From assembly GCA_900318495.1 (NCBI GenBank), contig ONLA01000007.1, forward strand, positions 1 through 56,524: a stretch of DNA of 56,524 bases, read 5' to 3'. Position numbers and translations under genes: made by a program. Every line of letters begins with the position of its first letter. Positions within the stretch are counted from its first letter, which is position 1. The stretch comes from an uncultured Eubacteriales bacterium. GTDB taxonomy: Bacteria > Bacillota > Clostridia > Oscillospirales > Acutalibacteraceae. This document shows, piece by piece, positions 10,553 through 43,342 of this stretch. The notes below the pieces were generated by a model. That model saw nothing but the letters and a program-made list of their open reading frames with translations, ran no database searches and had not been told where the DNA came from.

Positions 10553-10563
10553 TAAAATGCTGA

Positions 10564-10601
10564 CAATCTTTGCGGTCTTTTTCCGCAATACTGCGTTGTC
10601 G
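10564..10601. repeat. Dispersed repeat, partial copy
   Basis: The block TTTGCGGTCT...TTTTCCGCAATACTGCGTTGTCG matches the left half of the inverted-repeat element at 53222-53336 almost base for base, so it is a partial copy of the same family. A GGGCGG/CCGCCC hairpin lies near 10656, just before glyA. Confidence 0.7.
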
Positions 10602-10706
10602 AATAAAATAAGCTAACCGCGAAAACGGCAGGGCTGTTTTCATCAGATAAATTAAAGGGCGGACAAGCACACCGCCCGGGTAATTTTAAAAAAGGGGAAG
10701 TTAAAA

Positions 10707-13491: not shown

Positions 13492-13597
13492 AAGGCGATA
13501 CCGCATAATTCAGGTGTGCGGATTGCGCAGCAAGATTTTTCGTCAGGTTGTACAAATAAATCAAGGTAAGGCTGACGCCTTGCCGAGATTTTTTGGT
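13492..13597. repeat. Dispersed palindromic repeat, copy 3 (inverted orientation)
   Basis: This is the reverse orientation of copies 1 and 4: GCATAATTCAGGTGTGCGGA, then GCAGCAAGATTTTTCGTCAG, then AAATAAATCAAGGTAAGGC. The opposite orientation shows that the element inserts both ways. Confidence 0.85.
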
Positions 13598-13688
13598 AAG
13601 TAAAAAGGTGTATTCCGTTGTTGAAAATTAACAAAAACGCACCTTGAATTTTGGCAGACGAAAAAATCTTTTATTCTAAAAAAGAAAA

Positions 13689-13717
13689 TTGATTTATTTA
13701 AACTATAGTATTATTAA
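13689..13717 (+). promoter_or_regulatory. Candidate promoter of the starch operon
   Basis: TTGATT (13689-13694) and TATTAA (13712-13717) are separated by 17 bases, about 66 bases before the ATG at 13784. No CcpA-like site is obvious. Confidence 0.4.
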
Positions 13718-13783
13718 AGGGTAAATACGGAGTAGTATTGTTTACTATCCGAATACATTTTTTAAGTTTGGAGGAACACTATT

Positions 13784-15313: not shown

Positions 15314-15326
15314 TTTAGGTGAAACT

Positions 15327-17723: not shown

Positions 17724-17741
17724 TAACCGAAATTCACTGAC

Positions 17742-17766
17742 AGCCCGGTTTATCCGGGCTGTTTTT
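17742..17766 (+). terminator. Terminator after the amylase (left copy of a 25-bp direct repeat)
   Basis: AGCCCGG/CCGGGCT arms around TTTAT are followed by GTTTTT. The same 25 bases recur exactly at 18890-18914, so the two copies frame the AT-rich gene between them. Confidence 0.9.
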
Positions 17767-17777
17767 CCGATTTTTCG

Positions 17778-17800
17778 TTTTGCTAAAATAAATAGCAAAA
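17778..17800 (+). promoter_or_regulatory. Perfect inverted repeat upstream of the AT-rich gene, possible operator
   Basis: TTTTGCTA (17778-17785) and TAGCAAAA (17793-17800) form a perfect inverted repeat ending 4 bases before the -35 box. The half-site recurs between -35 and -10 (TTTTGCTA near 17823-17830), at 18946-18953, and as TTTGCTA at 19037-19043 in the next promoter. It may bind the product of the AT-rich gene or another regulator. Confidence 0.45.
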
Positions 17801-17804
17801 AATA

Positions 17805-17833
17805 TTGACAACTATACCTGATTTTGCTATAAT
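17805..17833 (+). promoter_or_regulatory. Consensus sigma-A promoter of the AT-rich gene
   Basis: TTGACA (17805-17810) and TATAAT (17828-17833) are perfect consensus boxes at the ideal 17-base spacing, 44 bases before the ATG at 17878. It is among the strongest promoters in the window. Confidence 0.85.
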
Positions 17834-17877
17834 ATGTAATGTAGAGTAATATATATCGTGTTATTGAGGTGTAAATT

Positions 17878-18870
17878 ATGGGTAAAATTCCAACTAATGA
17901 ACTACTTGATAATTTCTTTGCAAGCCCAGATGGAGCAAAATATGTAAAGCACAGAAAAATAATAAAAGAAACACAGCTTTACGCTTATGAGTTGAAGATA
18001 GGTAAGGCGTTGGTGGATATGGATGCCGATGATTTGATTGGGTTCTTTACCGAGGTGGACACCCGCCGGAATGGGGCTGATTCCAATATCATTTCCAGCA
18101 ATTCGACACTTGACCAGATTGTTGTTATTTACCGTAAGATTTTTGATTATTATATTGACGAATACGAACTTATTAGGACTCCGTTTCGTGATAAGAAATT
18201 AAAAGGAATAGAATTTATAAAAAACATATCTAAAGGTAGAGAGCGATTAACTTGGGAGATGGTTGAAGATATTATCCGGAGACTTCATACCGATAGCGCT
18301 AATCACATTCGTGCAGATTATCTTGAATTGATTATTTTGCTTTACTACAATGGATTTGAAAATGCCACTGAAATTGTAGAAATGCAAGAGCGCGATATCA
18401 GCCACAAAACTAAAACCGTTCTTTTGCCTGGTAGAACTATTCATTTGTCTGATAGATGTTATACATTGCTTACAAAGTTTAATGCTATGACAGATGGGTG
18501 GAGAAATTATGTATTGGCAAGTTGGCACGGGAGTTATTTTAAATTTATTGTGAGAGCCAGCAATAAATACGATATTGATGATAGACCACTCAAAGCAATG
18601 CGTGAAAATATCAATGTATATTTGTGTAAGTATGTCAACAACGAGTATAATACACATATCAATTATAGCAATCTATATTTGCTTGGTTTTTACGATTTCC
18701 TGAAAACTAAGTTTGGTGAAGATAAGGTCAACGGAATGTTGTTATCGAACTACAATAGCGAAAGTGTTCAGCAACTTCAACAATCTGCACGCGAGTATGG
18801 ATTTAGATTTGAAAATATATCTCATTTAAAGAGAAGATTAAGAATGTTCGTAAAAACAGATGATGAATAA
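17878..18870 (+). CDS. AT-rich orphan protein, tyrosine-recombinase-like but lacking catalytic residues
   Basis: A 330-residue soluble protein, clearly more AT-rich and with different codon preferences from its neighbours. The N-terminal half has the look of an integrase SAM-like helical domain. Residues of about 150-205 (YLELIILLYYNGFENATEIV ... VLLPGRTIHLSDRCYTLL) follow the pattern of the tyrosine recombinase catalytic domain, where LLYxTGLRxSE and ...PLSDR would stand. The box I Arg is absent, however, and I find no HxxR or nucleophile Tyr motif at the C-terminus. It may be a DNA-binding relative of integrases or a degenerate one. It has its own perfect promoter, AGGTG before ATG 17878, and identical terminators on both sides, which argues for a transferred single-gene cassette. 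Function unknown. Confidence 0.5.
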   Translation: MGKIPTNELLDNFFASPDGAKYVKHRKIIKETQLYAYELKIGKALVDMDADDLIGFFTEVDTRRNGADSNIISSNSTLDQIVVIYRKIFDYYIDEYELIRTPFRDKKLKGIEFIKNISKGRERLTWEMVEDIIRRLHTDSANHIRADYLELIILLYYNGFENATEIVEMQERDISHKTKTVLLPGRTIHLSDRCYTLLTKFNAMTDGWRNYVLASWHGSYFKFIVRASNKYDIDDRPLKAMRENINVYLCKYVNNEYNTHINYSNLYLLGFYDFLKTKFGEDKVNGMLLSNYNSESVQQLQQSAREYGFRFENISHLKRRLRMFVKTDDE

Positions 18871-31425: not shown

Positions 31426-32562
31426 ATGTTCAAAAAATTTGCAAGCATTGCACTTGCGGCTTTGATGATTACCGGCACAGCCGCTGTTTCTGCAAGCGCT
31501 GCCGAAAACGAAGAGGCTGTTGCTGCTGCTGAGGACAGCAGTGCGGTTGCCGCAGCTGACGAAAGCGCTGTAGGCGCTGATGCCGAGTCGGACACAGGCG
31601 CTGACTCAAAGGTTTATTTTGAAGCGCCCAGCTTCTGGCAAAACTACAAGGACATCAGAATTTATCTTTACAATGCTGATACAGGCGATGTATCAATCCC
31701 CTGGAACTCAAAGAAGGGCTTAATGAAAGATGAAGGAAACGGAAAATGGTCATTTGATATTGCTGCCAAGGGTTATACCGTAAGCGGCGCGACATATGCT
31801 TGTATTTTCCTTACCAACACCGAAACACAGACCTGCGACGTATTTATCGGTGATGACTGTATCGGCGATACCGCTTACTGCACAGGTGAAAATAACAAGA
31901 TTGAAAACACAGTAGACTCCACCAAAAAGAGCTATGAGGTTAAGTGGAGAAACGCTGACCCCAACAAGTACGGCGTTCCGCTTGCTATTACATCAATCGG
32001 TAACATTGTTGGTTCAGCTCTCAGACCCGGTCAGACAAAGTATGATTTGTTTGCCGCTTTCTTAGACAAGAACGCAGGCGCACAGGGTATTGATAACGCT
32101 AAGCAGTACAAAAAGGATAAAACCGACCAGCAGATTATTGATGAAACCGCAGAGGCTCTCGGTCTTGGCATAGAAGACGTTAAGAAGGCTATCAAAGAAA
32201 AAGGCAGATCTGACCTTAAGTGGGACGAAAGCAAGTCTTCACTTTCCGGAGGCTCATCAGGCGGCGGTTCAGGTTCAGATTCTGATTCCGGCTCAGGCTC
32301 AAGCTCAAACGGCGGTTCAAGCTCATCAAGCAAAAGCTCAAGCACAACAGGCGGCTCAAGCACAACAGGCGGCTCAAGCTCATCAGGCGGTTCAAGCTCA
32401 TCGGGCGGCTCAAGCTCATCGGGCGGTTCAGGCTCAAGCGGTTCAGGTTCAACCGGTTCCGTAACCTCCGGTCAGGAAACAACAATCTTCTTTGTATTCG
32501 GCGGTGTAATGCTCGCGGCTGCAGGCGTAATTTTCCTTGCAAGAAAGAGAAGAGAATTCTAA
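31426..32562 (+). CDS. Secreted Ser/Gly-rich surface protein with C-terminal membrane anchor
   Basis: A 378-residue exported protein. It has a signal peptide (to about residue 25, ASAAE) and an acidic Ala/Glu linker. A beta domain (about 62-165; VYFEAPSFWQNYKDIRIYLY, then GNGKWSFDI) resembles starch-binding or Ig-like modules. A short helical stretch follows, and a long Ser/Gly/Thr linker (about 270-345) leads to a terminal helix FFVFGGVMLAAAGVIFLA with a Lys/Arg tail. The end looks like a sortase sorting signal, but no LPxTG is visible (GSVTSGQET instead), so it may simply be membrane-held. AGGAGG precedes ATG 31426. It may present an alpha-glucan-binding domain on the cell surface, but that is inferred only from fold resemblance and the starch genes nearby. 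Confidence 0.7.
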   Translation: MFKKFASIALAALMITGTAAVSASAAENEEAVAAAEDSSAVAAADESAVGADAESDTGADSKVYFEAPSFWQNYKDIRIYLYNADTGDVSIPWNSKKGLMKDEGNGKWSFDIAAKGYTVSGATYACIFLTNTETQTCDVFIGDDCIGDTAYCTGENNKIENTVDSTKKSYEVKWRNADPNKYGVPLAITSIGNIVGSALRPGQTKYDLFAAFLDKNAGAQGIDNAKQYKKDKTDQQIIDETAEALGLGIEDVKKAIKEKGRSDLKWDESKSSLSGGSSGGGSGSDSDSGSGSSSNGGSSSSSKSSSTTGGSSTTGGSSSSGGSSSSGGSSSSGGSGSSGSGSTGSVTSGQETTIFFVFGGVMLAAAGVIFLARKRREF

Positions 32563-32740: not shown

Positions 32741-32771
32741 AAAAATTGCATATTCGTATGCAATTTTTTTC
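32741..32771 (+). terminator. Perfect 12-bp hairpin with TTCG loop upstream of the phage-like cassette
   Basis: AAAAATTGCATA pairs with TATGCAATTTTT around TTCG and is followed by T. It is either a third terminator or a leader hairpin. An imperfect long-range inverted repeat (32790-32800 with 32847-32857) lies between it and the small terminase ribosome binding site. Confidence 0.6.
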
Positions 32772-32876
32772 ATTTTTACGGGTATAAGTGAAGGGGTTTT
32801 TAAAAATTTCAAAGCTTAATTACAAAACTTAATTATAAAACAGTATAAAACCCTTTCAGTTGGAGGTGGATTTAAT

Positions 32877-33353
32877 ATCAGTAAATTAACAGGCAAACAA
32901 ATTGAGTTTTGCCGCAGCTTTGTTTGCACCGGCGACCCTGCAGCGGCGGCAAGAGCGGCAGGCTACACCAAAAATCCCGGCAGGGCAGGCGAAAAGCTGA
33001 TGTCTTGCCCCGAGGTGACCGCGGAAATTACGCGAATGTGCGAACAGCGTGAAAAAATTTTCGCGCGGCTTGCGTCACTCGGGTATCAGCGGCTTGCGTT
33101 CGGCAACATTTCGGACGCGGTGTCGCTGCTGTTTTCGGAGCGCCCGACAGCCGAACAGCTCAGGGATATGGACTTGTTTATGGTGTCCGAAATCAAAAAG
33201 CCTAAGGACGGAATGCTGGAAATCAAGTTTTTCGACAGGCTAAAGGCGCTTGAAAAGCTCGGAACCGAAAAAGAATCCGCGACAGGCGTCAGCGATTTGT
33301 TCGACGCAATCGGCCGCGGCGCAAAGGCTGTGAGCGAAAATGAACAGCCTTAA
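32877..33353 (+). CDS. Phage-type terminase small subunit (apparent ATC start)
   Basis: Small terminases bind phage DNA and hand it to the large subunit for packaging. The 158-residue reading begins (M)SKLTGKQIEFCRSFVC, then TGDPAAAARAAGYTKNPGRAG, the N-terminal helix-turn-helix of the Terminase_2 family, and continues through an acidic middle to a short tail. The first in-frame ATG is only at 33000, inside the family homology and without a ribosome binding site. A perfect GGAGGTG (32862-32868) lies 8 bases before ATC 32877, exactly where homologues start. This implies initiation at ATC, a one-base change from ATG, or a sequencing error. The gene ends 14 bases inside the large-subunit gene. 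Confidence 0.8.
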   Translation: MSKLTGKQIEFCRSFVCTGDPAAAARAAGYTKNPGRAGEKLMSCPEVTAEITRMCEQREKIFARLASLGYQRLAFGNISDAVSLLFSERPTAEQLRDMDLFMVSEIKKPKDGMLEIKFFDRLKALEKLGTEKESATGVSDLFDAIGRGAKAVSENEQP

Positions 33354-34590
33354 GGCGTTTTCGCCGAAGCAGCTCAGAGTTATGAGCTGGTGGCACCAAA
33401 ATTCGCCTGACTTTGAGAAGGACGCGATAATATGCGACGGCGCGGTAAGAAGCGGCAAAACGTTTTGTATGTCGCTGAGCTTCATAATTTGGAGCTTTTA
33501 CGCCTTTAAGGACACTGACCTCGCGCTGTGCGGCAAAACAATCAGCTCTTTAAGGCGCAACATGGTTACCCCCGTTTTGCCTTTGCTTTCGTCGCTCGGG
33601 TTTCACTGTGAGGAAAAGCTCAGCAGAAATATTCTTGCTGTCAGCCTGGACGGTGTTACAAATAGGTTTTATCTGTTCGGCGGCAAGGACGAAGGCTCGG
33701 CTTCGCTTATTCAGGGTATGACTCTGGCAGGCGTGCTGTTCGACGAGGTTGCGCTTATGCCGAGGTCGTTTGTTGAGCAGGCAATGGCGCGGTGTTCGGT
33801 TCAGGGCTCGCGGTTTTGGTTTAACTGCAATCCCGAGCATCCCGAGCACTGGTTTTATAACGAGTGGATTAAAAACGCCGCCGCGAAAAACGCGCTTCAC
33901 CTGCATTTTATGATGGACGACAATCCGTCGCTCAGCGAAAAGGTCAGGCGCAGATACGAACGGCTTTATTCGGGTGTGTTTTATGAAAGGTTTGTTTTGG
34001 GAAAATGGGTTGCGGTTTACGGCGCGGTTTATCCGTTTATGGCTCAGGAAAAAATGTACTGCAAAATTCCGCCGGGCGGCTTTGACCGCTATGTGATTTC
34101 GTGCGACTACGGAACTGTAAATCCCACCTCGGCAGGGCTTTGGGGCAGACAAAACGGCATTTGGTACAGAATTGACGAATATTACTTTGACTCGAGAAGC
34201 ATGGGCTTTCAGCGTACAGACGAGGAGCACTACGAAGCCTTGTGCCGCCTTGCCGGAGACCGCAGGGTGGACGTTGTGGTAGCGGACCCTTCGGCGGCAA
34301 GCTTTATCGAGGTAATCAGGCGTCACAGGCGTTTTGCCGTAAAGCCCGCTGACAACAACGTTGTCAACGGAATACGCAGGGTGTCGCAGGCGCTGAAGGA
34401 CGGCAGTGTGAAAATTTGCGAAAACTGCCGTGACGCGCGGCGTGAGTTTTCGCTGTACAAGTGGGACAGCGCACGGCGCGAGGACGCTCCGGTTAAGGAG
34501 CACGACCACGCTATGGACGACATAAGGTATTTTGTTACAACGGCAATGGACGGCGGCAGAACAACGGTTGCGATTGCCGCCGGCAGATAG
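33340..34590 (+). CDS. Phage-type terminase large subunit
   Basis: DNA-packaging motor ATPase and nuclease, 416 residues, PBSX/Terminase_3-like. Walker A is CDGAVRSGKT (residues 32-41), Walker B is GVLFDEVALMP, and the C-terminal RNase H-like nuclease is marked by VISCDYGTVNPTS with its acidic residues and later VVVADPSAASF and HDHAMDDIRY-like text. All key residues look intact, so this is not a decayed copy. ATG 33340 overlaps the small subunit; the portal gene starts 10 bases after its stop. Codon use matches the host genes around it. Confidence 0.93.
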   Translation: MNSLKAFSPKQLRVMSWWHQNSPDFEKDAIICDGAVRSGKTFCMSLSFIIWSFYAFKDTDLALCGKTISSLRRNMVTPVLPLLSSLGFHCEEKLSRNILAVSLDGVTNRFYLFGGKDEGSASLIQGMTLAGVLFDEVALMPRSFVEQAMARCSVQGSRFWFNCNPEHPEHWFYNEWIKNAAAKNALHLHFMMDDNPSLSEKVRRRYERLYSGVFYERFVLGKWVAVYGAVYPFMAQEKMYCKIPPGGFDRYVISCDYGTVNPTSAGLWGRQNGIWYRIDEYYFDSRSMGFQRTDEEHYEALCRLAGDRRVDVVVADPSAASFIEVIRRHRRFAVKPADNNVVNGIRRVSQALKDGSVKICENCRDARREFSLYKWDSARREDAPVKEHDHAMDDIRYFVTTAMDGGRTTVAIAAGR

Positions 34591-34600
34591 GAGGAAGTTT

Positions 34601-35752
34601 ATGTTTGGCAGAAAAAGACGCGGGGACGCCAAGAATAAAACGCTTGCGCAAACGGTGCCGAAAGGCAGGAACAAGACGGATTTTTTCAGCGTGACCGCCG
34701 TTGAGTACCAAAGCAGAACCGAGCGCGCGCTTTATGATTCAATGCGCGAGGCGGTGCCGATTATCGACGCGGCAATTGAAAAAATCATCCGTCTTATAGG
34801 CGGCTTTTCAATTGAAACCAACAGCCGCGAAAGCCGCGAAGCCGCCGGCAGCTTTGTAAAAAACGTGCAGTCAAACGGCACAGGATTAGGGCTGGGGGGC
34901 TTTGTGTTCGGTTATCTTAACAGTCTGCTGACCTACGGCGAGGCTGTGGGCGAAATGATTTTAAGCCGTAACCGGGACGGCGTGGCGGCGGTTTACAACG
35001 CAAGCCTTGACGACGTGGAAATCCGCCCGGGGACTTCTCCGCTTGACCCTGTGGTTTACCTTAACGGCGGCGACGGTTTAAAGCCCGTGAAAAACCAAAA
35101 TCTGGTTATTTGCTCACTGCTGAACCAAAAACCCGGCACAGTCAGGGGAAAATCGCTTATAAGCGGACTTCCGTTTATGAGCGAAATACTGCTGAAAATC
35201 TTCGGTTCGGTAAAAAACAACTGGGAGCGCGTGGGCGACGTGCGATTTGCGGTTACCTACACACCCGAACAGGGCGACACATTCAGCGAGGAAAGCGCGC
35301 GTCAAATTGCGGACGAGTGGAAAAAGGCGATACGCAGCGACAGCGTTTGCGACTTTGTTTCGGTTGGAAACGTCAGCATCAGGGCAATCGGCGCGGAAGC
35401 GGAAATTCCCGACTGCGAGGTTCCGCTCAGGGCTGTGCTGGAGCAGATTTTAAGCAAGCTCGGAATACCGCCGTTCCTGCTTGGCATTTCGTGGTCAAGC
35501 ACCGAGCGGATGAGCGAACAGCAGGCGGATATTTTGACCAGCGAGCTTGAATATTACCGCGCGGCGGTTGAGCCTGTAATACGCAAAATTGTTGAAACAC
35601 ACCTGCGCTTAAACGGCTTTTCCGGCGACGTCCGCGTTGTGTGGGACGACATCAACCTGCAGGACACCGTAGAGCTTTCACAGGCGCGTCTTAACAACGC
35701 TCACGCAATGCAAATTGAAAAGGAAATCGGTTTGGAGGAAGATAATGGCTGA
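34601..35752 (+). CDS. Phage-type portal protein
   Basis: A 383-residue portal, the dodecameric ring at one capsid vertex through which DNA enters. The pattern is clear: an N-terminal segment on repeated initiation motifs (REAVPIIDAAIEKIIRLIGG), a central domain with LTYGEAVGEMIL, a clip/stem region (GKSLISGLPFMSEILLKI), and the C-terminal KLGIPPFLLGISWSSTERMSEQQ typical of portals. AGGAGGAAG precedes ATG 34601. The end overlaps the protease gene by 8 bases. Confidence 0.88.
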   Translation: MFGRKRRGDAKNKTLAQTVPKGRNKTDFFSVTAVEYQSRTERALYDSMREAVPIIDAAIEKIIRLIGGFSIETNSRESREAAGSFVKNVQSNGTGLGLGGFVFGYLNSLLTYGEAVGEMILSRNRDGVAAVYNASLDDVEIRPGTSPLDPVVYLNGGDGLKPVKNQNLVICSLLNQKPGTVRGKSLISGLPFMSEILLKIFGSVKNNWERVGDVRFAVTYTPEQGDTFSEESARQIADEWKKAIRSDSVCDFVSVGNVSIRAIGAEAEIPDCEVPLRAVLEQILSKLGIPPFLLGISWSSTERMSEQQADILTSELEYYRAAVEPVIRKIVETHLRLNGFSGDVRVVWDDINLQDTVELSQARLNNAHAMQIEKEIGLEEDNG

Positions 35753-36722
35753 CAATCAAATTATAAAAAACGCTTCCGTCGCTTCGGATCGTATTAACAC
35801 GGAAAGCGCCGCCGGGGACGAGCTTGTGCTTATCAACGCATACACGCGCAAGCCGCTCGCGGCGGATGAGGTTTATGTGTTCACCGTGACGCTGTGCGAC
35901 AACGACGTTGACCGTGACGGAGAACGCTTCACCGTTGAATCGCTGTTTGCCCTTGAAAAGCTATTTGTGGGCAAAACCGGGATTTTTGACCACAACCCTA
36001 CCGCCAAAAATCAGACCGCGCGCATTTTTTGGTGCGGAGTAGAGGCGGTTGAGGGCAGAAAAACAGCCACGGGCGACGATTATTTCAGGCTGAAGGCGAG
36101 GGCTTATATGCCCCGTTGTCCCGAGACCGAAAAGCTGATTCGCGGTATTGACTGCGGAATTTTGCGCGAGGTTAGCGTAGGCTGCGCGGTAAAATCGGTA
36201 AAATGCAGCATTTGCGGCGAGGAAATCGCTTTTTGTAATCACAACAAGGGCACCGAATATTCAGGCAAGCTTTGCTGCGGCGAGCTTACCTCGCCTTACG
36301 ACGCGTACGAGTTCAGCTTTGTGGCTGTTCCGGCTCAAAGGGAAGCAGGCGTTGTAAAATCGGTTTACGGAAAGGAAGTTAATATGGAAGGTATTATGAA
36401 AAAGCTCGGCGGCGGCAGCGCAAGCTTAAGCCCTGCCGAGTGCGAAAGGCTAAAGGCTTATATTGAGGCGCTGAAGCAGAGCGCAAAGGACGGAGTTTAT
36501 TACCGCGACAGCCTTACAAGCGAGGTGCTAAGGCTGTCGGCGGCGGTTCAGCCCGGTATTTCGCGCGATACTATGGAAGCTTTGGCAAAAACAATGAGCG
36601 TGGCGCAGCTTAACGAGTTCAAAAACGCTTTTGAGAAAAAGCTTGACGAAAGCTTTACGCCCGTTCCGCAGCTTTACGGAAAAAGAAAAGACGCCGTTTC
36701 AAACGGTCAGTTTACAATTTAA
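35745..36722 (+). CDS. Phage-type prohead protease / scaffold-like protein with Cys cluster
   Basis: A 325-residue protein in the position of the prohead protease. FTVTLCDNDVDRDGERF, GIFDHNPT (candidate catalytic His) and ILREVSVGCAV (candidate Ser) follow the S78/HK97-type protease pattern. An unusual insert CSICGEEIAFCNHN ... CC could bind zinc. The C-terminal 120 residues are helical with a LKAYIEALKQ-type coiled coil, which suits a fused scaffolding domain released after assembly. ATG 35745 overlaps the portal stop and has TTGGAGGAAG upstream. It is followed by the decoration-like and capsid genes. Confidence 0.75.
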   Translation: MADNQIIKNASVASDRINTESAAGDELVLINAYTRKPLAADEVYVFTVTLCDNDVDRDGERFTVESLFALEKLFVGKTGIFDHNPTAKNQTARIFWCGVEAVEGRKTATGDDYFRLKARAYMPRCPETEKLIRGIDCGILREVSVGCAVKSVKCSICGEEIAFCNHNKGTEYSGKLCCGELTSPYDAYEFSFVAVPAQREAGVVKSVYGKEVNMEGIMKKLGGGSASLSPAECERLKAYIEALKQSAKDGVYYRDSLTSEVLRLSAAVQPGISRDTMEALAKTMSVAQLNEFKNAFEKKLDESFTPVPQLYGKRKDAVSNGQFTI

Positions 36723-36735
36723 CGGAGGTATAAAT

Positions 36736-37071
36736 ATGAATGTAAATTTTAACGGAGCAGGAGAAAATGTTTTAACCTTTATTGCCGATTCCTCACTTAC
36801 CGAAACAGGCGTTCCCGTGAAAATCAGCGGTGACGGCACAGTGGCAGGCTGCGGTGAGGGCGACGCTTTTTGCGGCATTTGCGTAGGAATCCGCGACGGT
36901 TACGCGGCTGTTCAGATTTCGGGCTACGCTGTGTTTAAGGCGGCTTCAAAAATTACCGCGGGCTACAAAAAGCTTGCGGCGGCGGATGACGGCAATATTG
37001 CCGTAGACGAAAACGGCAGAGAGCTTCTTGTGGTAAATTCAACCGCGAACGAAGCCGGAGTAATTCTTTAA
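36736..37071 (+). CDS. Small head protein, decoration-like
   Basis: A 111-residue, beta-rich protein immediately before the capsid gene, where head decoration or stabilisation proteins usually lie. MNVNFNGAGENVLTFIADSS and repeated Gly/Val-rich stretches resemble trimeric capsid-cementing proteins (DUF2190-like), with GYAVFKAASKITAGYKKLAA in the middle. The call is mostly from position and character. A perfect GGAGG 8 bases before ATG 36736 and the same before the next gene suggest high, stoichiometric expression. Confidence 0.6.
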   Translation: MNVNFNGAGENVLTFIADSSLTETGVPVKISGDGTVAGCGEGDAFCGICVGIRDGYAAVQISGYAVFKAASKITAGYKKLAAADDGNIAVDENGRELLVVNSTANEAGVIL

Positions 37072-37088
37072 TTAACGGAGGTAATAAA

Positions 37089-38093
37089 ATGGCTGATTTT
37101 GAGAATATTACTATTGAAAAAGGTATGTATCAGGTAAAGGGAGGACTCACGCAGGCGCTTGAAGCCCTTGACCCTTCCGAAAACTACGCCGGAACCTCGC
37201 TTGAAGGTCTTGACGCGTTTTCAAGACAGCTCAAGCGCTTTGACATCAGGGTTAGCGGCAGAGGCAGCGACTGCGTGGAGAAATTTTTCCAGACCTCAAA
37301 TTCCGCCGCGCTGTTCCCCGAATATGTAAGCAGAGCGGTTTACCAGGGAATGGAACGCGCCGATATCCTGCCCAACCTTGTAGCGACGGTTACCGACATC
37401 GAGGGTATGGACTACAGAAGCATTGTGTCCGACGCTTCCGGGGACGACAAGAGCCTTAAGGTGGTGGCTGAGGGAGCTTATATTCCTCAGACCGCTGTAA
37501 AAACAAGAGAAAACCTTGTTAAGCTTCACAAGCGCGGCAGAATGTTGGTGGCTTCCTATGAGGCTCTGCGCTTTCAGCGTCTTGACCTCTTCACGGTTAC
37601 GCTTAACCAGATTGGCGCGTACATCGCAAGAGCGCAGCTAAAGGACGCAATCGGCGTTCTTACCGACGGCGACGGCAACAACAACGCCGCCGAAAATGTG
37701 GACGCTGCGACATCGGGCGCTGTTACTTATGACGACCTTGTTAAGCTTTGGGCAAATATGAGTCCGTATGAGCTTAATACAATCCTTGCGCCCACGGCTG
37801 AAATGCAGAAAATCCTCGCGCTCCCTCAGATGCAGGACGCGAACGCCGGACTTGATTTTCAGGGCACCGGCAAGATGATTACTCCGCTCGGCGCGGCGTT
37901 GCTTCACGCTCCCGAAATGGAGCCCGGAAGAATTATCGGTCTTGACAAAAACTGCGCCCTTGAAATGGTTCAGTCAGGCGGAGTAGTGACCGATTACGAC
38001 AAGCTTATTGACCGTCAGCTTGAACGCGCGGCAATTACCTGCACCGCAGGCTTTGCGAAAATCTTCACCGAAGCCGCAAAAACACTTTCCTGA
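37089..38093 (+). CDS. Phage-type major capsid protein (HK97 fold)
   Basis: A 334-residue capsid subunit. FFQTSNSAALFPEYVSRAVY, VVAEGAYIPQTAVKTRE and the helix-rich RLDLFTVTLNQIGAYIARAQL, followed by LAPTAEMQKILALPQMQDANAG, match HK97-type capsids of the PBSX/XkdG branch. It is full length, with no frameshift. A GGAGG site precedes ATG 37089, and the gene is preceded by a decoration-like gene and followed by connectors. An intact capsid next to an intact terminase and portal means DNA-filled particles remain conceivable. Confidence 0.88.
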   Translation: MADFENITIEKGMYQVKGGLTQALEALDPSENYAGTSLEGLDAFSRQLKRFDIRVSGRGSDCVEKFFQTSNSAALFPEYVSRAVYQGMERADILPNLVATVTDIEGMDYRSIVSDASGDDKSLKVVAEGAYIPQTAVKTRENLVKLHKRGRMLVASYEALRFQRLDLFTVTLNQIGAYIARAQLKDAIGVLTDGDGNNNAAENVDAATSGAVTYDDLVKLWANMSPYELNTILAPTAEMQKILALPQMQDANAGLDFQGTGKMITPLGAALLHAPEMEPGRIIGLDKNCALEMVQSGGVVTDYDKLIDRQLERAAITCTAGFAKIFTEAAKTLS

Positions 38094-38109
38094 TAACGGA
38101 GGCGGTTGT

Positions 38110-38466
38110 TTGAACATTGCAAATGTTATGGAGCGCTTTTCGCTGCTGTGCGGAATCGACATTAGCGAAGCGTCAAAATGGCGTTCCGTCATCGAGGATT
38201 CCGAGGCATACATAAACAGCCGTTTGATTGTGAAAAATCCCGGCGAGGAGCAGCTAAAGCGTATTGATATGCTTATCGCGGCATACGCTTACAAAACCTA
38301 CTGCCTGTGCAATGAAAACAACGTTACCGCCTTTACCGCGGGCGAGGTGCACCTTACCTCGTCCGCGCGCCGCGGCGACGGAGCACAAAAGCTGTGGCAA
38401 AGGCTGGTTTCGCAGTCGGGTGATTTAATCAGCGGCGGCGAATTCTTGTTTGGCAGGGTGATATAA
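38110..38466 (+). CDS. Head-tail connector protein (first adaptor)
   Basis: A 118-residue mostly helical protein, starting at TTG 38110 with GGAGG 7 bases upstream; the ATG at 38128 has no such site. MNIANVMERFSLLCGIDISE and IDMLIAAYAYKTYCLCN fit small head-tail adaptors (gp6/XkdH-region type) that sit under the portal. The function is assigned by position and size. It overlaps the next gene by one base (TAATG). Confidence 0.65.
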   Translation: MNIANVMERFSLLCGIDISEASKWRSVIEDSEAYINSRLIVKNPGEEQLKRIDMLIAAYAYKTYCLCNENNVTAFTAGEVHLTSSARRGDGAQKLWQRLVSQSGDLISGGEFLFGRVI

Positions 38467-38822
38467 TGAGTATTTTTAATACGGTAGGCGAAACAATTAA
38501 ACAGTATGGTTCAAGGGTTACAATACGCCAAAACGGCGACACGGTTGACACAAACGCTTTTGTTGAGCCGCTGCGCTACCGCAACAGAATTTATATCGGC
38601 GGACAGTATCACGCGCTCGGTCACAACAGACGGCAAAAGTACCTGTATATCGGATGTGCCGACCACAGGCTGATTGAAAACAAGTCGGTTATTGAGGCGC
38701 AGGGCAGTAAATATATCGTGAAAAGAAGCGAAACCTATTACATTAAGGACTATCCGCTTTATGAATGGGCAATTTTAACACCGTTCGGCGACAAAACGGA
38801 GGATGATTATGGATTTGATTAA
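38466..38822 (+). CDS. Head completion / head-tail stopper-like protein
   Basis: A 118-residue beta-rich protein (YGSRVTIRQNGDTVDTNAF ... YIGGQYHALGHNRRQKY) in the slot of the head-closure or stopper protein of siphophage and PBSX clusters. I see no diagnostic motif, so the call rests on order: portal, protease, capsid, adaptor, this gene, tail-terminator-like gene. Start and stop overlap the genes on both sides. Confidence 0.55.
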   Translation: MSIFNTVGETIKQYGSRVTIRQNGDTVDTNAFVEPLRYRNRIYIGGQYHALGHNRRQKYLYIGCADHRLIENKSVIEAQGSKYIVKRSETYYIKDYPLYEWAILTPFGDKTEDDYGFD

Positions 38823-39252
38823 AGACGTAATCGACAGAATAATTACGCGAATCAGGCAAAACGAAGCGCTTGCAAACGTGCGGTTTGTAAGGGAGTATAA
38901 TTCGACTCCGGTTGAGAGCCCAATCGGCGGTTACCTTGCCGCCGTGTGCGTAACCGGCGTTAACCTGAGCAGGCGGTTTGTGGGCGGTTATATGTCGTCA
39001 TCCGTCAGGGGCGAGGTTTACTGCGCGGAAGCTGACATCAGGCTGTACGCTCCGCCGGGTGAAAACGGCAGCGGATTGTCCGCGCTTGCCGGCGAAATAA
39101 TAAGATCGCTTAAAGGTATTGAAGCCGTGGAAAACATCGGTGAAATCAGTGCTTCGGCAATCGGCTTTGACCCCGACGCGGACTCAATTTACCGCACAAT
39201 CAGCTTTAAAACCGAGGTGTGCGCGGAAAGCGGTGGGAATAATGAAGGTTGA
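38809..39252 (+). CDS. Tail-terminator / minor tail-like protein
   Basis: A 147-residue alpha/beta protein with VIDRIITRIRQNEALANVRF at the start and an Ala/Gly/Val-rich rest, in the XkdJ-like position where the tail-terminator or neck protein lies. ATG 38809 is supported by GGAGG 6 bases upstream; in-frame ATG 38803 overlaps that site. It overlaps the genes on both sides. In complete PBSX-like clusters a tail sheath gene would come next; here it does not. Confidence 0.5.
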   Translation: MDLIKDVIDRIITRIRQNEALANVRFVREYNSTPVESPIGGYLAAVCVTGVNLSRRFVGGYMSSSVRGEVYCAEADIRLYAPPGENGSGLSALAGEIIRSLKGIEAVENIGEISASAIGFDPDADSIYRTISFKTEVCAESGGNNEG

Positions 39253-39604
39253 TTATATCAGAGGCAGCGATGTGACAATCCTGCTTGACGGCGAGGTGCT
39301 CGGAGGTGTGAGCTCGGCGGAAATTTCGGACGCGGGCAAGGTGATTAACATCGGGGAATACCTAAGCGGTATTCCTGTGGAGCAGCTCAAAACACCGGTG
39401 TATAAAATCAGGCTGAAGCTTGAAAGCTCCGCCGCGCCTCTTTTGGGCGTTGACGCCTGCACGCTGAGCTTTTTGTGCAGAGGAAAAACCGAGATTTTCA
39501 CCGGGTGCCGCGTTACGGAACACACAGCGGAAATACCTTCAAACGGTAGGGTAACGCACACCGTAACAATTGAATCAAGCCAAAGGAGTGTTGAAGATGA
39601 ATGA
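39242..39604 (+). CDS. Short tail-tube-like protein
   Basis: A 120-residue beta-rich protein. VTILLDGEVLGGVSSAEISD at its start resembles the LFLDGExx opening of PBSX XkdM-type tail tube proteins, and the strand pattern to VTHTVTIESSQ would suit one small tube ring. It is short for the family. If correct, it is the only tail-shaft component left in the cassette. It overlaps its neighbours on both sides (11 and 8 bases). Confidence 0.4.
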   Translation: MKVDYIRGSDVTILLDGEVLGGVSSAEISDAGKVINIGEYLSGIPVEQLKTPVYKIRLKLESSAAPLLGVDACTLSFLCRGKTEIFTGCRVTEHTAEIPSNGRVTHTVTIESSQRSVEDE

Positions 39605-39722
39605 AATAAATCAGGACGCCGAAAGCTTCGGCTTTTTGGATTTTGAGGTTCTCAGCGAGGAGCTTGAGCAGGAGAGTATGCGCTACAGCCGCAGGCTTGC
39701 AGAAGAAGAGGAGGCGGTTTAG
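39597..39722 (+). CDS. Tiny acidic protein (41 residues) in the place of the tape-measure region
   Basis: MNEINQDAESFGFLDFEVLS begins a 41-residue, strongly charged, helix-prone peptide ending AEEEEAV. The ATG overlaps the preceding stop, AAAGGAG lies upstream, and its TAG abuts the TTG of the LysM gene, so its placement looks selected. In PBSX-like clusters the tape-measure chaperones and a large tape-measure gene would stand here. It may be what is left of the chaperone, or a small assembly factor. I recognise no family. Confidence 0.5.
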   Translation: MNEINQDAESFGFLDFEVLSEELEQESMRYSRRLAEEEEAV

Positions 39723-40238
39723 TTGAAGCTCGCTTCGATGAGGTTTAAGGGCGTAAGCTGGCTTCACAATCCGCGCGAGCTCAGCTTTAGCTGCGAAAAA
39801 TACATAAACGAAAAGGGCTCGCCTCACGGCAAGTCCTATGTTTACGGCAACGGCAGAAAAAACCTGCGCATAAAAGGCAGGGGAGAGCTTTTCGGCGCGG
39901 ACTGTCACGAACAGTTTGCCAAATTGTTCGACCTGTTCCGCGGCGGCGGAAGCGGAGTTTTGAGCATAGCCAGGCTGAGCCCGGTGTTTGCCGAGTTTGA
40001 AAGCCTTAAAATTACCGCCGAGCCCAAGCCCGACATACTCGAATACGAGTTTGTTTTCCGCGAGGTTATGGACAAAAAACACGGGGACAAGACCGTGACC
40101 TGCGTTTTGGAGGACGGCGAGTGCCTGTGGGACGTATCGTATAAATACGGCGTGGCAATTGAAGCTTTGCTTGAACTTAACCCGGAATTCAAGCGTCCCG
40201 ACGAGACGATTACGGGAAAGACGGTGGTTTTATGCTGA
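39723..40238 (+). CDS. XkdP-like LysM baseplate/tail protein
   Basis: A 171-residue protein with an N-terminal beta domain and a C-terminal LysM (about 125-170: EDGECLWDVSYKYGVAIEAL ... LNPEFKRPDETITGKTVVL). XkdP of PBSX has this form and links the tape measure end to the hub. TTG 39723 follows GGAGG at 8 bases and abuts the previous stop; ATG 39738 is too far away. It overlaps the hub gene by 7 bases. Confidence 0.75.
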   Translation: MKLASMRFKGVSWLHNPRELSFSCEKYINEKGSPHGKSYVYGNGRKNLRIKGRGELFGADCHEQFAKLFDLFRGGGSGVLSIARLSPVFAEFESLKITAEPKPDILEYEFVFREVMDKKHGDKTVTCVLEDGECLWDVSYKYGVAIEALLELNPEFKRPDETITGKTVVLC

Positions 40239-41167
40239 GGTATTACGCCGAAGACCGAAGCGGCAAGCGCTTTGAGCTTAAGGAAATATACTCTGCCGTG
40301 ATTGACTGCGACGTGTCTGTTCCGGCGGACAGCCTTAAAATTTTTATGGCGTACAACCGCCGCGCGGCTGAAAGCGCGTGCGAAATAGTAGCGGAGGACG
40401 ACGGCAGGGTTGTTTTCAGAGGAAAAACCGACAGCATTGTAAGTGAAAAAAGCGCCGTGGCGCAAACAATGAAAATCAACGCCCGAAGCCTTGCGGCGCT
40501 GCTGCTTGACAACGAAGCCGAACCGCTTGACTACAACACGCCTTCCGTTCAGCTTATTTTCCGCCGCCACCTGACGCCGTTCGGAATCACGCTTGCCGAC
40601 GGAGGAAGGTCGGCGATGAACGGCAGACTGCGTATAGCGAAGGGAATGTCGCACTGGCAGGTTGTTGAAAGCTTTTGCAGGTCAAAATACGGCAAATATC
40701 CGAAAATCACGGCTGACGGAAAAGCGTTTCTTCAGGGACTTCCCAAAAACGGAGTTACGCTTTTTGGCGACGGAGGAATCGCTTATTTTTCTATAAAGGA
40801 AAAGCGCAATCCTCACGCTCTTATCACCGGAGTGCGTTTTAAGAGCAGTAAAAACGGCAGGTACAATTCGGTTGTTACCAACACAAATCCCGAATGTGCT
40901 TCGCTTATCAGGCAAAGGTATGTTGACGTTACAGCCGAAAACCGCACAATGGATACCGTGTTTAAAATGGTAGAAAACAGTAACCGCAAAAGCTATTACC
41001 TGCAGCTTGGCTGTTTTGGGTGCCGTCTCGGGCTTTTGGGCAGAGGCGCGGCAGTCGCTGACAGCGCCGGGGATACACTTGATGGACTCATTGTAAGGGG
41101 CGTTAAGTTCAGCGAGGACAAAAACGGCGCGGTTTCGGTTATTACTCTCGAAAAGGAGTGGTCATAA
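40232..41167 (+). CDS. Baseplate hub protein (late control D / XkdQ-like)
   Basis: A 311-residue protein of the gpD/XkdQ hub type. VIDCDVSVPADSLKIFMAYN, EDDGRVVFRGKTDSIVSEK and the RIAKGMSHWQVVESFCRSKY region match the family, whose trimers form the central hub through which tube and spike are joined in contractile tails. The TAA overlaps the next ATG by one base (TAATG). Confidence 0.75.
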   Translation: MLRYYAEDRSGKRFELKEIYSAVIDCDVSVPADSLKIFMAYNRRAAESACEIVAEDDGRVVFRGKTDSIVSEKSAVAQTMKINARSLAALLLDNEAEPLDYNTPSVQLIFRRHLTPFGITLADGGRSAMNGRLRIAKGMSHWQVVESFCRSKYGKYPKITADGKAFLQGLPKNGVTLFGDGGIAYFSIKEKRNPHALITGVRFKSSKNGRYNSVVTNTNPECASLIRQRYVDVTAENRTMDTVFKMVENSNRKSYYLQLGCFGCRLGLLGRGAAVADSAGDTLDGLIVRGVKFSEDKNGAVSVITLEKEWS

Positions 41168-41505
41168 TGTGGCTTATGAGCTACATAACAAAAAATTCAA
41201 TCGAAAAGCCTCTTGCGGTCAGGGGCAGCGTAAGCAACGGCGTTGAGGGCACGGCGGTTAATTCCTCGGGCGAACACAAGAAGCTGCTGCTGTGCCAGCC
41301 GTTCGGAGTTGTAAGTGTTCCGCCCGACCGTCACAGCACGGTTGTGCTTCCGCTTGAGGACGGCGAGGTTGTGCTCGGCGTTACCGATAACTCCGTCAAG
41401 GTAAACGCCGGCGAGGTCGCGCTGTTTTCGCAGGGCGGCGCTTCAATCGTTTTAAAAAACAACGGCGATGTTGTAATTAACGGGAAGGTGTTCGAACGTG
41501 AATGA
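41167..41505 (+). CDS. Baseplate spike-like protein (gpV / XkdR-type, short)
   Basis: A 112-residue beta protein. The end, FSQGGASIVLKNNGDVVING, has the alternating repeat of trimeric beta-helix spikes (gpV / gp45), and the middle reads VVLPLEDGEVVLGV, the usual OB-like stretch. ATG 41167 lies 8 bases after AAGGAG; an in-frame GTG at 41158 is inside the upstream gene. It is shorter than P2 gpV, closer to the PBSX form. Confidence 0.65.
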   Translation: MWLMSYITKNSIEKPLAVRGSVSNGVEGTAVNSSGEHKKLLLCQPFGVVSVPPDRHSTVVLPLEDGEVVLGVTDNSVKVNAGEVALFSQGGASIVLKNNGDVVINGKVFERE

Positions 41506-41824
41506 CGTGATGCTTGAAAACGGCGACGTTAAGCTTGATTCTGCCGGCGCGGCGGTTATTTTGGACGGCGTGGAAGCTAAAATCCAGCGCCTGCTGATAT
41601 GCGCGGCGGCAAAAAAGGGCAGGTTTATTTACGACAGAACGCTCGGTTCGGAATATAACTTTGAAACAGATTTAAAAACTGCAGAGATGTTAATTAACGA
41701 GGCTGCCGCAAGCTATGACACAGGGTACATACGCGTGCTTGAATGCGGCGAAAGGCTTGTTTTGGGCATTGAAACAGACAACGGCATAACAGAAAGGGAG
41801 GTGCGTTTTTACGGAGAGCTATGA
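41498..41824 (+). CDS. Baseplate wedge protein (gp25-like / XkdS, DUF2634)
   Basis: A 108-residue protein starting at GTG 41498. MLENGDVKLDSAGAAVILDG followed by VEAKIQRLLICAAAKKGRF and DRTLGSEYNFET is the typical DUF2634/gp25 pattern, a wedge protein at the edge of the contractile baseplate that has lysozyme-like ancestry in T4. Its last codons contain the ribosome binding site of the baseplate J gene. Confidence 0.8.
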   Translation: MNDVMLENGDVKLDSAGAAVILDGVEAKIQRLLICAAAKKGRFIYDRTLGSEYNFETDLKTAEMLINEAAASYDTGYIRVLECGERLVLGIETDNGITEREVRFYGEL

Positions 41825-42869
41825 TGAAATTTACAACAGAATGAAGGATAATTATATTCAGCGCAGCGGAATAGAGTTTGATGAGGCTTCCGACATCGCG
41901 GTAAGGTTAAAGGTGCTGGCAGGCGAGGTGTTTAACGTTTACTCAAGCTTTGAATGGCTGAAAAGGCAGATGTTCGCCTCAACCGCAAGCGGAGAATATC
42001 TTGATTACATAGCGGCGGAAAGGGGCATTACACGGCGTGAGGCAACAAAGGCTTCCGGAAGCCTTACGTTTTATGTTGAAGAATTCAGCTCGACGCCGAT
42101 TTTGATTCCGCAGGGAACGGTTGTGGCAACCACAGGCAAAAATCCGGTAAGAATTTATACTGCAGAGGACGCTGTAATTCCCGATAACACCGGTTCGGTT
42201 ACTGTGCGCGCCGAGGTTGAAACCGCGGGCTTCAGCGGAAACATACTTGTGCGGTCGGAGCTTTTGCCAATTAATGTTCCGCAGGAGATTTCAAGAATAG
42301 CAAATCTGAGCAGATTTACCGGCGGCGCCGACGCCGAAAGCGATGCTTCCCTGCGCGAACGGATTAAAGAATCCTACGTTTGTGTTCCCAACTGCGTAAA
42401 CAAGGCTTATTATCAGAAGCTTGCGGAAAGCGTTGAAGGGGTTGACAAGGCAGGAGTTGTAACTTACGCGAGAGGCGCCGGAACAATAAATATTTATGTC
42501 AGCGCCTTTGACGGTGACGTTGACCCGGAAACGCTTGACGAGGTGGCGGAGGCTGTCAGCCGTGAACGTGAAATTAACCTTGACGTCCGCGTTGTTGACG
42601 CGGTAAGCCTGAGCTACGATATGACGGTGTCCGTTAAGGGAAAGGCAGGTTACACCGACGAGGAGATAACTGAGCTTTGCACCGAAGCGTTTGAAGGTTA
42701 CATCAGTACGATTCCAATCGGCGGCAAGCTGTATCTCAGTATTCTCGGAAAACATCTTCTCAATACCGGTTGTATTGAAAACTACGAGTTTGATGTTTCA
42801 ATGACTAACGCGGAGCTGCCTGGCTCACAGTATTTTGTGCAGGGCGACGTAATTGTTGAGGTGGTCTGA
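41811..42869 (+). CDS. Baseplate J-like protein (apparent ACG start)
   Basis: A 352-residue wedge protein of the gpJ/XkdT family: YDEIYNRMKDNYIQRSGIEF at the start, GEYLDYIAAERGITRREATK, a central FTGGADAESDASLRERIKES (the signature of the family) and a C-terminal domain. The family N-terminus (YDEIYNRM) is encoded before the first ATG (41841), which has no ribosome binding site. AAGGGAGGTG (41794-41803) lies 7 bases before ACG 41811, exactly where the protein should begin, so ACG is the likely start; otherwise it is ATG 41841 with 342 residues. Confidence 0.8.
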   Translation, partial: TESYDEIYNRMKDNYIQRSGIEFDEASDIAVRLKVLAGEVFNVYSSFEWLKRQMFASTASGEYLDYIAAERGITRREATKASGSLTFYVEEFSSTPILIPQGTVVATTGKNPVRIYTAEDAVIPDNTGSVTVRAEVETAGFSGNILVRSELLPINVPQEISRIANLSRFTGGADAESDASLRERIKESYVCVPNCVNKAYYQKLAESVEGVDKAGVVTYARGAGTINIYVSAFDGDVDPETLDEVAEAVSREREINLDVRVVDAVSLSYDMTVSVKGKAGYTDEEITELCTEAFEGYISTIPIGGKLYLSILGKHLLNTGCIENYEFDVSMTNAELPGSQYFVQGDVIVEVV

Positions 42870-43342
42870 TGACAAGCTTAGAATCAATGGTTACAAAGCT
42901 TGCTCCCTTAAGGCTTTATGACTTCAGCGAGGGCAGCGAAATTAACATCGAGCTTTCGGTGTTTGCCGCCGAGCTTGACACGGCGTTTGCCCGTCTTGAT
43001 GAAATGACGCGCGAATGTTTTATTGAAACCGCGCAAAGCTGGGGAATAAGCGAGCGTGAAAAATTTACCGGCAAGGAAAAGGTCTCGCTAAGCCTTGAAA
43101 AAAGGCGCGAGCTGCTTAAAACCGCTCAGTATGTTACGGGAGCGGATTTCAGAACGCCGGGCTTTGAGGAATTTGTAAGAAGCTGCGGCGCGCAGGATTT
43201 TACATATATTGAAGCGCCTTCGGTTTCAAAAATAAACCTTACAATTAACGATGACCTCGACAGCGGCGCCAAAAAGCTGCTTGAAGAACGGCTGGACGCC
43301 TACTGTCCCGCTCACTGCAAAATGATAATCAGATACTCGTAA
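42869..43342 (+). CDS. Baseplate / tail protein I-like (XkdU, DUF2313)
   Basis: A 157-residue protein following gpJ as XkdU does. The N-terminus LESMVTKLAPLRLYDFSEGS and the C-terminal LLEERLDAYCPAHCKMIIRY are typical of DUF2313, which sits at the wedge outer edge and normally anchors tail fibres. It overlaps gpJ by one base. It is the last cassette gene: no fibre, holin, endolysin, integrase or repressor follows. Confidence 0.7.
   Translation: MTSLESMVTKLAPLRLYDFSEGSEINIELSVFAAELDTAFARLDEMTRECFIETAQSWGISEREKFTGKEKVSLSLEKRRELLKTAQYVTGADFRTPGFEEFVRSCGAQDFTYIEAPSVSKINLTINDDLDSGAKKLLEERLDAYCPAHCKMIIRYS

Follow-up and report, generated by a model that had tools for sequence, protein, structure and literature searches.

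The 56,524-nucleotide stretch analysed here (the window; contig ONLA01000007.1 of assembly GCA_900318495.1, an uncultured Eubacteriales bacterium of the Acutalibacteraceae) contains a compact phage-derived cassette at positions 32877-43342. Judged from its genes and those of its relatives, the cassette probably serves as the structural operon of an element resembling a gene transfer agent (GTA), which has been domesticated in the Ruminococcus bromii group and is inherited vertically. The constraint on capsid, portal and terminase, which is similar to that on alaS, the loss of genes for independent spread, the mainly vertical transmission in nearly all genomes and the control shared with lysis, receptor-like and replication-type genes fit a GTA better than a killing particle or a compartment.

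Gene content of the cassette

The cassette consists of 17 open reading frames (ORFs), all intact and on the + strand. The head, packaging and baseplate genes named in a preliminary description of the window were supported by Pfam and PHROGs, and no match to sheath, tape measure, fibre, lysis (holin, endolysin) or integrase was obtained within 32877-43342 with these databases. The sheath and tape-measure genes of a long contractile tail had been described as missing, and this held. A tail-tube homologue (39242-39604) had been overlooked. The GC content was 0.49-0.54 in the cassette and 0.38-0.53 in about 5 kb on each side, in agreement with the host-like composition described earlier. The genes are listed below.

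32877-33353, +: small terminase (terS), AUC start at 32877; Pfam Terminase_2 1.6e-13 and start-codon survey
33340-34590, +: large terminase (terL); phrog_2 9e-48, Terminase_6N 3e-15
34601-35752, +: portal; phrog_30703 3e-101
35745-36722, +: putative head maturation protease or scaffold; phrog_16951 2e-97 (unknown function), label from gene position
36736-37071, +: decoration-like head protein; phrog_4588 2e-16, virion structural protein
37089-38093, +: major capsid protein (MCP); Phage_capsid_4 1e-16, phrog_3922 3e-100
38128-38466, +: c1, head-tail connector-like; position and conserved order, translation may really begin at a TTG further upstream
38466-38822, +: c2, connector-like; position and conserved order
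38803-39252, +: c3, connector- or tail-terminator-like; position and conserved order
39242-39604, +: tail-tube homologue, 120 aa; tube profile matches the post-sheath gene of loci L084, L123, L125 and L127
39597-39722, +: 41-aa gene, possible remnant of a short tape-measure gene; position and by-eye likeness to the C-terminal end of the 183-aa product in L084
39723-40238, +: LysM baseplate protein, TTG start; LysM 0.004 (under cut-off), phrog_1274 6e-5
40232-41167, +: baseplate hub of Mu gp44 type; phrog_177 2e-8, profile matches to PDB 3d37 (8e-7) and 3cdd (6e-6)
41158-41505, +: spike-like, Mu gp45-like; phrog_25991 1e-8 (unknown function), Phage_Mu_Gp45 0.016
41498-41824, +: gp25-like wedge or sheath initiator; PF10934 (Sheath_initiator) 1e-4, under the curated cut-off, phrog_120 2e-6
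41841-42869, +: baseplate J; PF04865 8e-47
42869-43342, +: baseplate Gp48/DUF2313-like; PF10076 5e-11

The LysM baseplate protein is presumably XkdP-like. For c1-c3 and the 41-aa gene no convincing family match was found in Pfam or PHROGs.

Distribution and inheritance

A capsid scan of 84,980 species genomes yielded 369 stretches with capsid relatives, of which the best 80 were analysed as loci; a second set comprised the best 80 of 337 (L, G and f numbers designate loci, genomes and families). Nearly all of the best 80 of 369 carried the label Ruminococcus or that of uncultured Clostridia, Clostridiales, Ruminococcaceae and Oscillospiraceae, including R. bromii YE282, R. bromii 5AMG and Ruminococcus sp. 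FMBCY1. The exceptions were one Lachnoclostridium, one Anaeromassilibacillus and a few genomes labelled only as bacterium.

From the genus, 150 genomes were drawn evenly, the window's own among them. The capsid gene was detected in 139 of these, and in 73 of the 75 good-quality ones. The corresponding numbers for alaS, an essential single-copy gene used as the control, were 143 and 72. Within error, the cassette is thus as universal in the genus as alaS. Absence from all close relatives, named earlier as a result that would speak against a vertically kept particle, was not observed. A complete prophage with these genes at the same site was not seen, the flanks not having been systematically searched for integrases. 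The near full-length capsid matches in the other genomes were 64-97% identical to the window. Each genome had a single copy, G119 alone showing a second, weak match, and the 139 best matches included one with an in-frame stop, a single TAG in G128:C27:14017-15018. Three of the 11 capsid-negative genomes still carried J. Separately, the frames around the capsid gene of one IMG/VR contig (L168) were broken up.

At the level of the order, 83 of 396 genomes, the own one included, matched the capsid at E 1e-20. These were 43 of the 52 genomes of the own family (membership judged from listing order), 22 genomes of f13, 16 of f24 and one in each of two other families. Wherever the genes were detected, their order was the same in each of the 81 loci, and the 57 complete cassettes spanned 10,396-10,979 bp.

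The identities of MCP and AlaS to the window were correlated with a Spearman coefficient of 0.81 in 116 genomes whose AlaS match ran from residue 1 over nearly the full length, three partial MCP matches being omitted. The capsid and alaS tree distances of 21 genomes gave a Mantel r of 0.76 (0 of 9999 permutations). Eight of the 18 capsid splits, among them four of the six well-supported ones, were common with the alaS tree, compared with 0.2 by chance. The identity correlation and the agreement of the trees indicate mainly vertical inheritance, besides which some exchange of the cassette between lineages may have occurred.

The flanking genes of the cassette are alaS, a CBM26/LPXTG-like surface protein and fba. 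The fba neighbour is common to eight loci (L003, L004, L008, L010, L019, L035, L036, L038) and the alaS neighbour to L002 and L003; at other loci the cassette adjoins different genes. The surface protein, encoded directly upstream of the cassette (31426-32562), has a weak match to starch-binding module 26 and an LPXTG-like anchor, both matches being just under the curated cut-offs.

Selection on the cassette genes

Relaxed selection, with dN/dS near 1, had been named as a result that would speak against a maintained particle. All the cassette genes were instead found under purifying selection, with dN/dS values of 0.05-0.28. The values of capsid, terL and portal, pooled over 7-13 close pairs per gene, were 0.048, 0.064 and 0.077, and those of alaS 0.076 (window-L002 pair) and 0.092 (window-L003 pair). 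The tube gene was the fastest-evolving one (0.277); tube, hub and gp25 all evolve faster than terL, portal and capsid. Larger medians in another pair set stem from pairs near synonymous saturation.

A decaying prophage was ruled out by the near-ubiquity, the intact frames and the dN/dS values far below 1. Even a prophage caught early in its decay, to which the missing sheath, tape measure and fibre would point, is hardly credible, being at odds with these frames and ratios and with the equal content of loci whose synonymous divergence is largely saturated.

Sheath-bearing relatives and the reduced tail

The tube profile matched the gene following the sheath with E values of 1e-11 (L084), 5e-11 (L123), 2e-8 (L125) and 2e-7 (L127); against PDB sequences only chance-level matches were obtained. 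On profile similarity and synteny, the predicted product of 39242-39604 is a tube protein. The sheath was confirmed in L084 by Pfam (1e-13) and in L123 by PHROGs (6e-28). The sheath profile was made from L084 and L123, so that the matches of these two loci follow from its construction. A sheath was detected after the head genes in seven of nine f13 loci, five of 14 f24 loci, the sole f6 locus and 24 of 80 IMG/VR contigs. No sheath was detected by HMM in any of the 80 same-genus loci, nor in the 13 that come from other genera within the own family. In 73 loci the capsid and LysM genes are 2535-2714 bp apart, too close to accommodate a sheath and a tape measure.

The sheath-bearing sister clusters (L084, L123-L125, L127, L128, the seven f13 loci and the 24 IMG/VR contigs) have head genes homologous to those of the window and, where complete, the same tube, LysM, hub, J and gp48 genes. 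In contrast to the window they contain a sheath, and L084 and L123 also a small chaperone-position protein and a short tape-measure-position gene. The order in these two loci is sheath, tube, chaperone-position gene, tape-measure-position gene, LysM and hub, to which L123 adds J and gp48. The sheath-bearing versions are compact cassettes too, located on host chromosomes or short contigs. As the window has a tube homologue whose counterparts in the sisters adjoin a sheath, the tube appears to have been retained and the sheath and tape measure lost. Since the relatives in the order include sheath-bearing versions, the form in the window is a reduced one. Other f24 genomes retain only head genes and the hub, and L082 and L142 only head genes. 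In the f24 operons L122 and L120 the order of the capsid and protease-like genes is apparently swapped relative to the window.

By capsid identity the loci were divided into a bromii side (L002-L051, the window, L083) and a deeper side (L052-L081, L085). The last gene of the operon is a fibre-like one, mostly of 153-184 aa, in 18 loci of the genus and in several from other genera; by HMM the count for the genus was the same (18 of 80). The fibre-like gene lies 3' of gp48 in 18 of 23 lower-identity loci (L052-L080) compared with none of 32 higher-identity rows (L003-L050). The bromii side is without an operon-end fibre-like gene, and there is none in the window. In a fibre profile search, 0 of 13 higher-identity genomes were positive versus four of six others. 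In L197, L205 and L206 a 277-282 aa protein closing the head genes bears a fibre domain, and its start in L197 resembles c3. This gene (L197, 5855-6691) looks like a connector-fibre fusion at the end of a head-only operon, so that a tailless head would itself carry a domain of receptor type.

Two other uses of such a particle were considered. A PBSX-like killing particle would pack host DNA or little DNA, would not inject it, and would be kept since its baseplate kills competitors. The baseplate genes are Mu-like by sequence and PBSX-like in their order, the tube, hub and gp25 genes evolve faster than terL, portal and capsid, and the putative fibre or receptor proteins linked to the palindrome described below vary between genomes. 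However, a PBSX-type contractile particle has a sheath and a tape measure, both absent from the window, so that contractile puncture is not expected of the sheathless form. Moreover, terL and portal, neither of which a pure killer needs, are constrained nearly like the capsid. The killing particle is therefore regarded as unlikely. A compartment or secretion device without DNA, derived from capsid and baseplate, would agree with the lack of a fibre gene in the subclade and of a long tail, but the retention of the small terminase and the low dN/dS of terL make it very improbable.

Control module upstream of terS

The following elements were located between the surface protein gene and terS.

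32743-32766, +: palindrome AAATTGCATA-N4-TATGCAATTT followed by a T-run; forms the 5' half of the shared module
32783-32788, +: TATAAG, presumably the -10 element of the promoter for the cassette; lies about 20 nt past the palindrome, a nearly constant distance here and at the other sites
32789-32800, +: 5' arm of a possible leader stem; inverted repeat with 32847-32858, by eye in relatives
32847-32858, +: 3' arm of the possible leader stem; inverted repeat with 32789-32800, by eye in relatives
32862-32869, +: Shine-Dalgarno sequence GGAGGTGG; conserved

By a scoring rule, the palindrome and the -10-like element were present in 69 of 76 genus loci, four of the 69 being doubtful. The arms were aligned in 65 loci (46 distinct) after omission of four rows (L036, L053, L055, L063). 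The TTG/CAA core was invariant, six of the other seven pairs varied on both sides, and 95% of the cells were paired. The arms covary, with 24 both-side changes versus 4.9 in shuffles (0 of 500). A search of the upstream region in Rfam gave no matches.

With up to two mismatches allowed, 96 site-orientations (a perfect palindrome counting twice) were found in 15 of 17 genomes, compared with three in all for the reversed pattern. Nine capsid-less family members had two hits in all, both asymmetric, with two mismatches and chance-like, and nine capsid-positive members of other genera had one; the reversed control gave none in 29 genomes. This near-absence outside the genus indicates that the module is genus-specific and that other genera must be controlled otherwise. 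Within one genome the sites have similar arms and often a similar loop, and these differ from genome to genome, as is expected of an operator coevolving with its regulator. The palindrome might be a mere terminator, as the arms covary like those of a hairpin. An operator would fit better with the near-fixed distance to the TATA element and with the likeness of the arms, and often of the loop, within a genome.

In the own genome the full module occurred exactly at three places (reversed control 0), the cassette and two genes with DUF6291 matches. One match was 8.7e-19 (L289, cut by the contig end), the other 2e-4 (L288, partial and under the cut-off, without part of the domain). DUF6291 is related to replication initiators through PHROGs (8e-16 for the G075 homologue). 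By eye, the neighbours of one of these two initiator-like genes look like tpiA and gpmI.

The flanks were examined at all non-cassette palindrome sites of the 17-genome search, the two own-genome sites and one cassette (G068). The -10-like element was present at 42 of the 80 site-orientations. Of these 42, 27 had an ORF no more than 330 nt away, the G068 cassette included. Among the other 26 ORFs, 13 had a family match for the first or second gene. Family matches to lysis genes were obtained in three of the 17 genomes: SPP1 holin and GH25 in G033, XhlA and amidase in G062, and an endolysin in G125. A tail fibre was matched in G061, and weaker matches to tail fibre, tail protein or BppU_N (the last just under the cut-off) were observed in G033, G062 and G075. 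As to replication, G132 had a DnaD-like loader and G075 an NrS-1/D5 primase, and DUF6291 was matched in G075 and by the two genes of the own genome. An HTH_36 gene was found in G033, and its relative L277 matched replication initiators at 1e-9.

Twelve more of the 26 resemble these by eye and one (L324) is of unknown kind. The resemblances include lysis cassettes in two further genomes (G098, G105), putative receptor proteins with a common N-terminus in G132, G002, G098, G144 and G105, another HTH_36-like gene in G033, two sites in G093 with DUF6291-like genes, and two integrase-like genes in G105. The receptor label is tentative, since L326 has no PHROG match and the matches of L284 may reflect repetitive composition. 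Lysis-type genes also follow palindromes failing the module rule in G002 and G075. By eye, the neighbours of the module-linked genes look like core genes, such as htpG, rpsO and pnp at the G033 lysis pair and uvrA at G062. The occurrence of a palindrome-plus-promoter module at scattered phage genes appears to be new.

Several similar palindrome-promoter copies, mostly near contig ends and two of them before an integrase-like gene, were observed in G105 (L302-L307, L329, L331-L333) and are possibly a mobile element with the same promoter type. In G093 a GH25 gene follows three small phage-like genes at a contig end (L362, 404-2466); no palindrome was found in the 300 bases upstream of it.

Start codon of terS

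The terS gene has no ATG, GTG or TTG at the expected place, and its start was read as AUC at 32877, behind GGAGG at 32862. On the bromii side, terS starts with AUC (29), AUA (10) or AUU (6), together AUH, in 45 of 48 resolved loci, the exceptions being two ATG and one TTG; 42 of the 45 starts sit 8-9 nt behind GGAGG. In contrast, 24 of 25 resolved loci of the deeper side are canonical and none has AUH (unresolved were 4 of 52 and 6 of 31 loci, respectively). FMBCY1 (L058; L085 is of the same species, both ATG) belongs to the deeper side by identity, yet it groups with the R. bromii side in both trees. When it is moved there, the counts become 45 of 50 AUH and 22 of 23 canonical.

Ten AUH loci have a stop codon in frame within or beside the Shine-Dalgarno sequence, and a longer protein is thereby excluded there. 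The other cassette genes are canonical in the same loci when matches beginning at residue 1 are counted (capsid ATG 50 of 50, J 44 of 44), with rare exceptions in gp25 (one ATT and one CTG of 23) and hub (one CTG of 26). As the loci share ancestry, the AUH starts are not independent events. Initiation factor IF3 discriminates against such non-AUG start codons. That AUC, AUA and AUU replace one another, with AUG seldom used, suggests that weak initiation is selected for. The conserved AUH start of terS in the subclade appears to be new.

Relation to phage records

Among 50,697 phage records, the capsids of named phages were only 24-28% identical to that of the window. Five closer capsids, 61-83% identical, were from unannotated contigs of Mexican faecal samples. 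Four of these contigs were characterised: two had dS values of 0.04 and 0.05 to FMBCY1 and R. bromii 5AMG in terL-capsid-portal, the third also bears secY and an MCRA-family (oleate-hydratase-type) gene, and the fourth a nucleoside phosphorylase gene. By the low dS or the chromosomal genes, these four look like host chromosome. In a virome study of Mexican children, to which the five contigs may belong, 0.22 μm filters, chloroform and DNase were used (PMC8361208). Chromosomal cassette contigs among faecal phage records fit packaging, and they fit contamination too.

The IMG/VR contig L232 (IMGVR_UViG_3300032038_000365; 10001-10981 and 13509-18330) contains, among other genes, an isolated capsid gene that belongs to the cassette family, together with a protease-like gene of that family. 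It is phage-like, with terminase-, portal- and capsid-position genes of its own, as judged by size and order. With its capsid as the query, no second contig was found in IMG/VR. L232 would speak for the cassette being a satellite that depends on a helper, or a defective prophage that other phages mobilise. Either is nevertheless most improbable, given the mainly vertical inheritance in almost every genome, the lack of an integrase or replication gene in the cassette and the finding of only one such contig.

Discussion

Phage-derived head, terminase and tail genes within a host genome, a structural operon without genes of self-propagation (no integrase or replication gene in 32877-43342) and vertical inheritance under purifying selection are three of the marks of a GTA, and all three were found. 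Of the block that characterises an inducible prophage (integrase, lysis-lysogeny control, replication and lysis together) nothing was present in 32877-43342. The preliminary description had proposed a vertically kept particle, either a GTA or a reduced capsid-baseplate device; such a particle is supported, and none of the tests made spoke against it. Of the two, the GTA is favoured by the terminase pair and portal under strong selection and by the co-regulated lysis and replication-type genes of sister genomes.

According to the proposed mechanism, expression would be off by default, and a palindrome-controlled promoter common to the dispersed lysis, fibre and replication-initiator genes would switch the whole system on, with the non-AUG start keeping small-terminase synthesis low. 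A small capsid would most likely be built and filled by its own terminase, and would bear a stubby sheathless tail of tube, LysM, hub, spike and wedge proteins in place of a long contractile one. In producing cells, host DNA would be packaged, and the particles would be freed by lysis for delivery.

A wider proposal, which we consider tentative and rather doubtful, is that the bromii group harbours an exploded phage. Its capsid and stub-tail operon, receptors, lysis genes and initiators would be dispersed among core genes and fired together through one palindrome promoter type coevolving with a regulator, terS being gated by AUU, AUC or AUA. The initiators would start run-off replication at several points, and the amplified host regions would be preferentially packaged and transferred.

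Several observations weigh against the GTA interpretation or its common control. The TerS of the cassette retains an N-terminal domain like that of ordinary phage TerS, whereas the TerS of FpGTA, the GTA of Faecalibacterium, is described in the available text as having no obvious DNA-binding domain (PMC12946183). Both good-quality capsid-negative genomes (G057, G078) are also without J, and ten of the 18 capsid splits are absent from the alaS tree. G117 and FMBCY1 (G149), which belong to the genus and carry the capsid gene, gave no palindrome match with two mismatches allowed. An ORF within 330 nt was found at only 26 of the 41 non-cassette module sites, half of them with family support; many of the 15 sites without an ORF lie at contig ends in G105. 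It is also conceivable that the module is a promoter type inherited from phage, with no regulator in common. In the own genome no fibre was found by a profile search or by a second search with a distant query and no positive control. No lysis gene was assigned in it: the GH25 lysozyme of this genome (L356, 3461-4384, C32), 63% identical to the co-regulated G033 endolysin, has neither a palindrome nor an adjacent holin, and an amidase query in the same genome (G000) matched only an SH3-type region.

R. bromii is a keystone starch degrader. The cassette provides a concrete GTA candidate in its group, about as universal in the genus as alaS, and if the gene-transfer interpretation is true, it suggests a built-in export of pieces of the bacterium's own DNA. 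The promoter module is a handle for finding further parts of the system in these genomes. The natural series from sheath-bearing to head-only forms helps to ask what a GTA needs, and the packaging gene shows an unusual conserved non-AUG start.

Comparison with known systems

In the listed titles and abstract beginnings on GTAs and domesticated prophages, from sources other than subscription journals and most preprints, neither the cassette nor the palindrome was described. Dispersed replication initiators behind a common palindrome were not mentioned in the titles and abstract beginnings on GTAs either. According to the available text of a 2026 study, the FpGTA particles have 40 nm capsids with about 9 kb of DNA, operon I was present in 12 of the 12 Faecalibacterium genomes studied, and R. 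callidus packages random 4.6 kb fragments, no Ruminococcus gene cluster being named in that text (PMC12946183). FpGTA resembles the element of the window in coming from a gut bacterium of the same broad group and in its compact 10.5 kb operon with TerS, TerL, portal and capsid. By description, it differs in being podovirus-like, with 10 ORFs and with the baseplate in operon II, a second operon elsewhere that carries structural and lysis genes; the operon of the window has 17 ORFs, a tube homologue and a Mu-type baseplate. The short head-plus-hub operons of some f24 genomes might be FpGTA.

PBSX of Bacillus subtilis shares the order terS-terL-portal-head-connectors-tube-LysM-hub-gp25-J-DUF2313 with the window. 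In contrast, its sheath, long tape measure, lysis genes and regulators are in one block, and the window is without all of these. RcGTA and BaGTA of alphaproteobacteria are like the present element domesticated and vertically inherited, with genes at several loci, but their tail type is unrelated. BaGTA couples its production to run-off replication.

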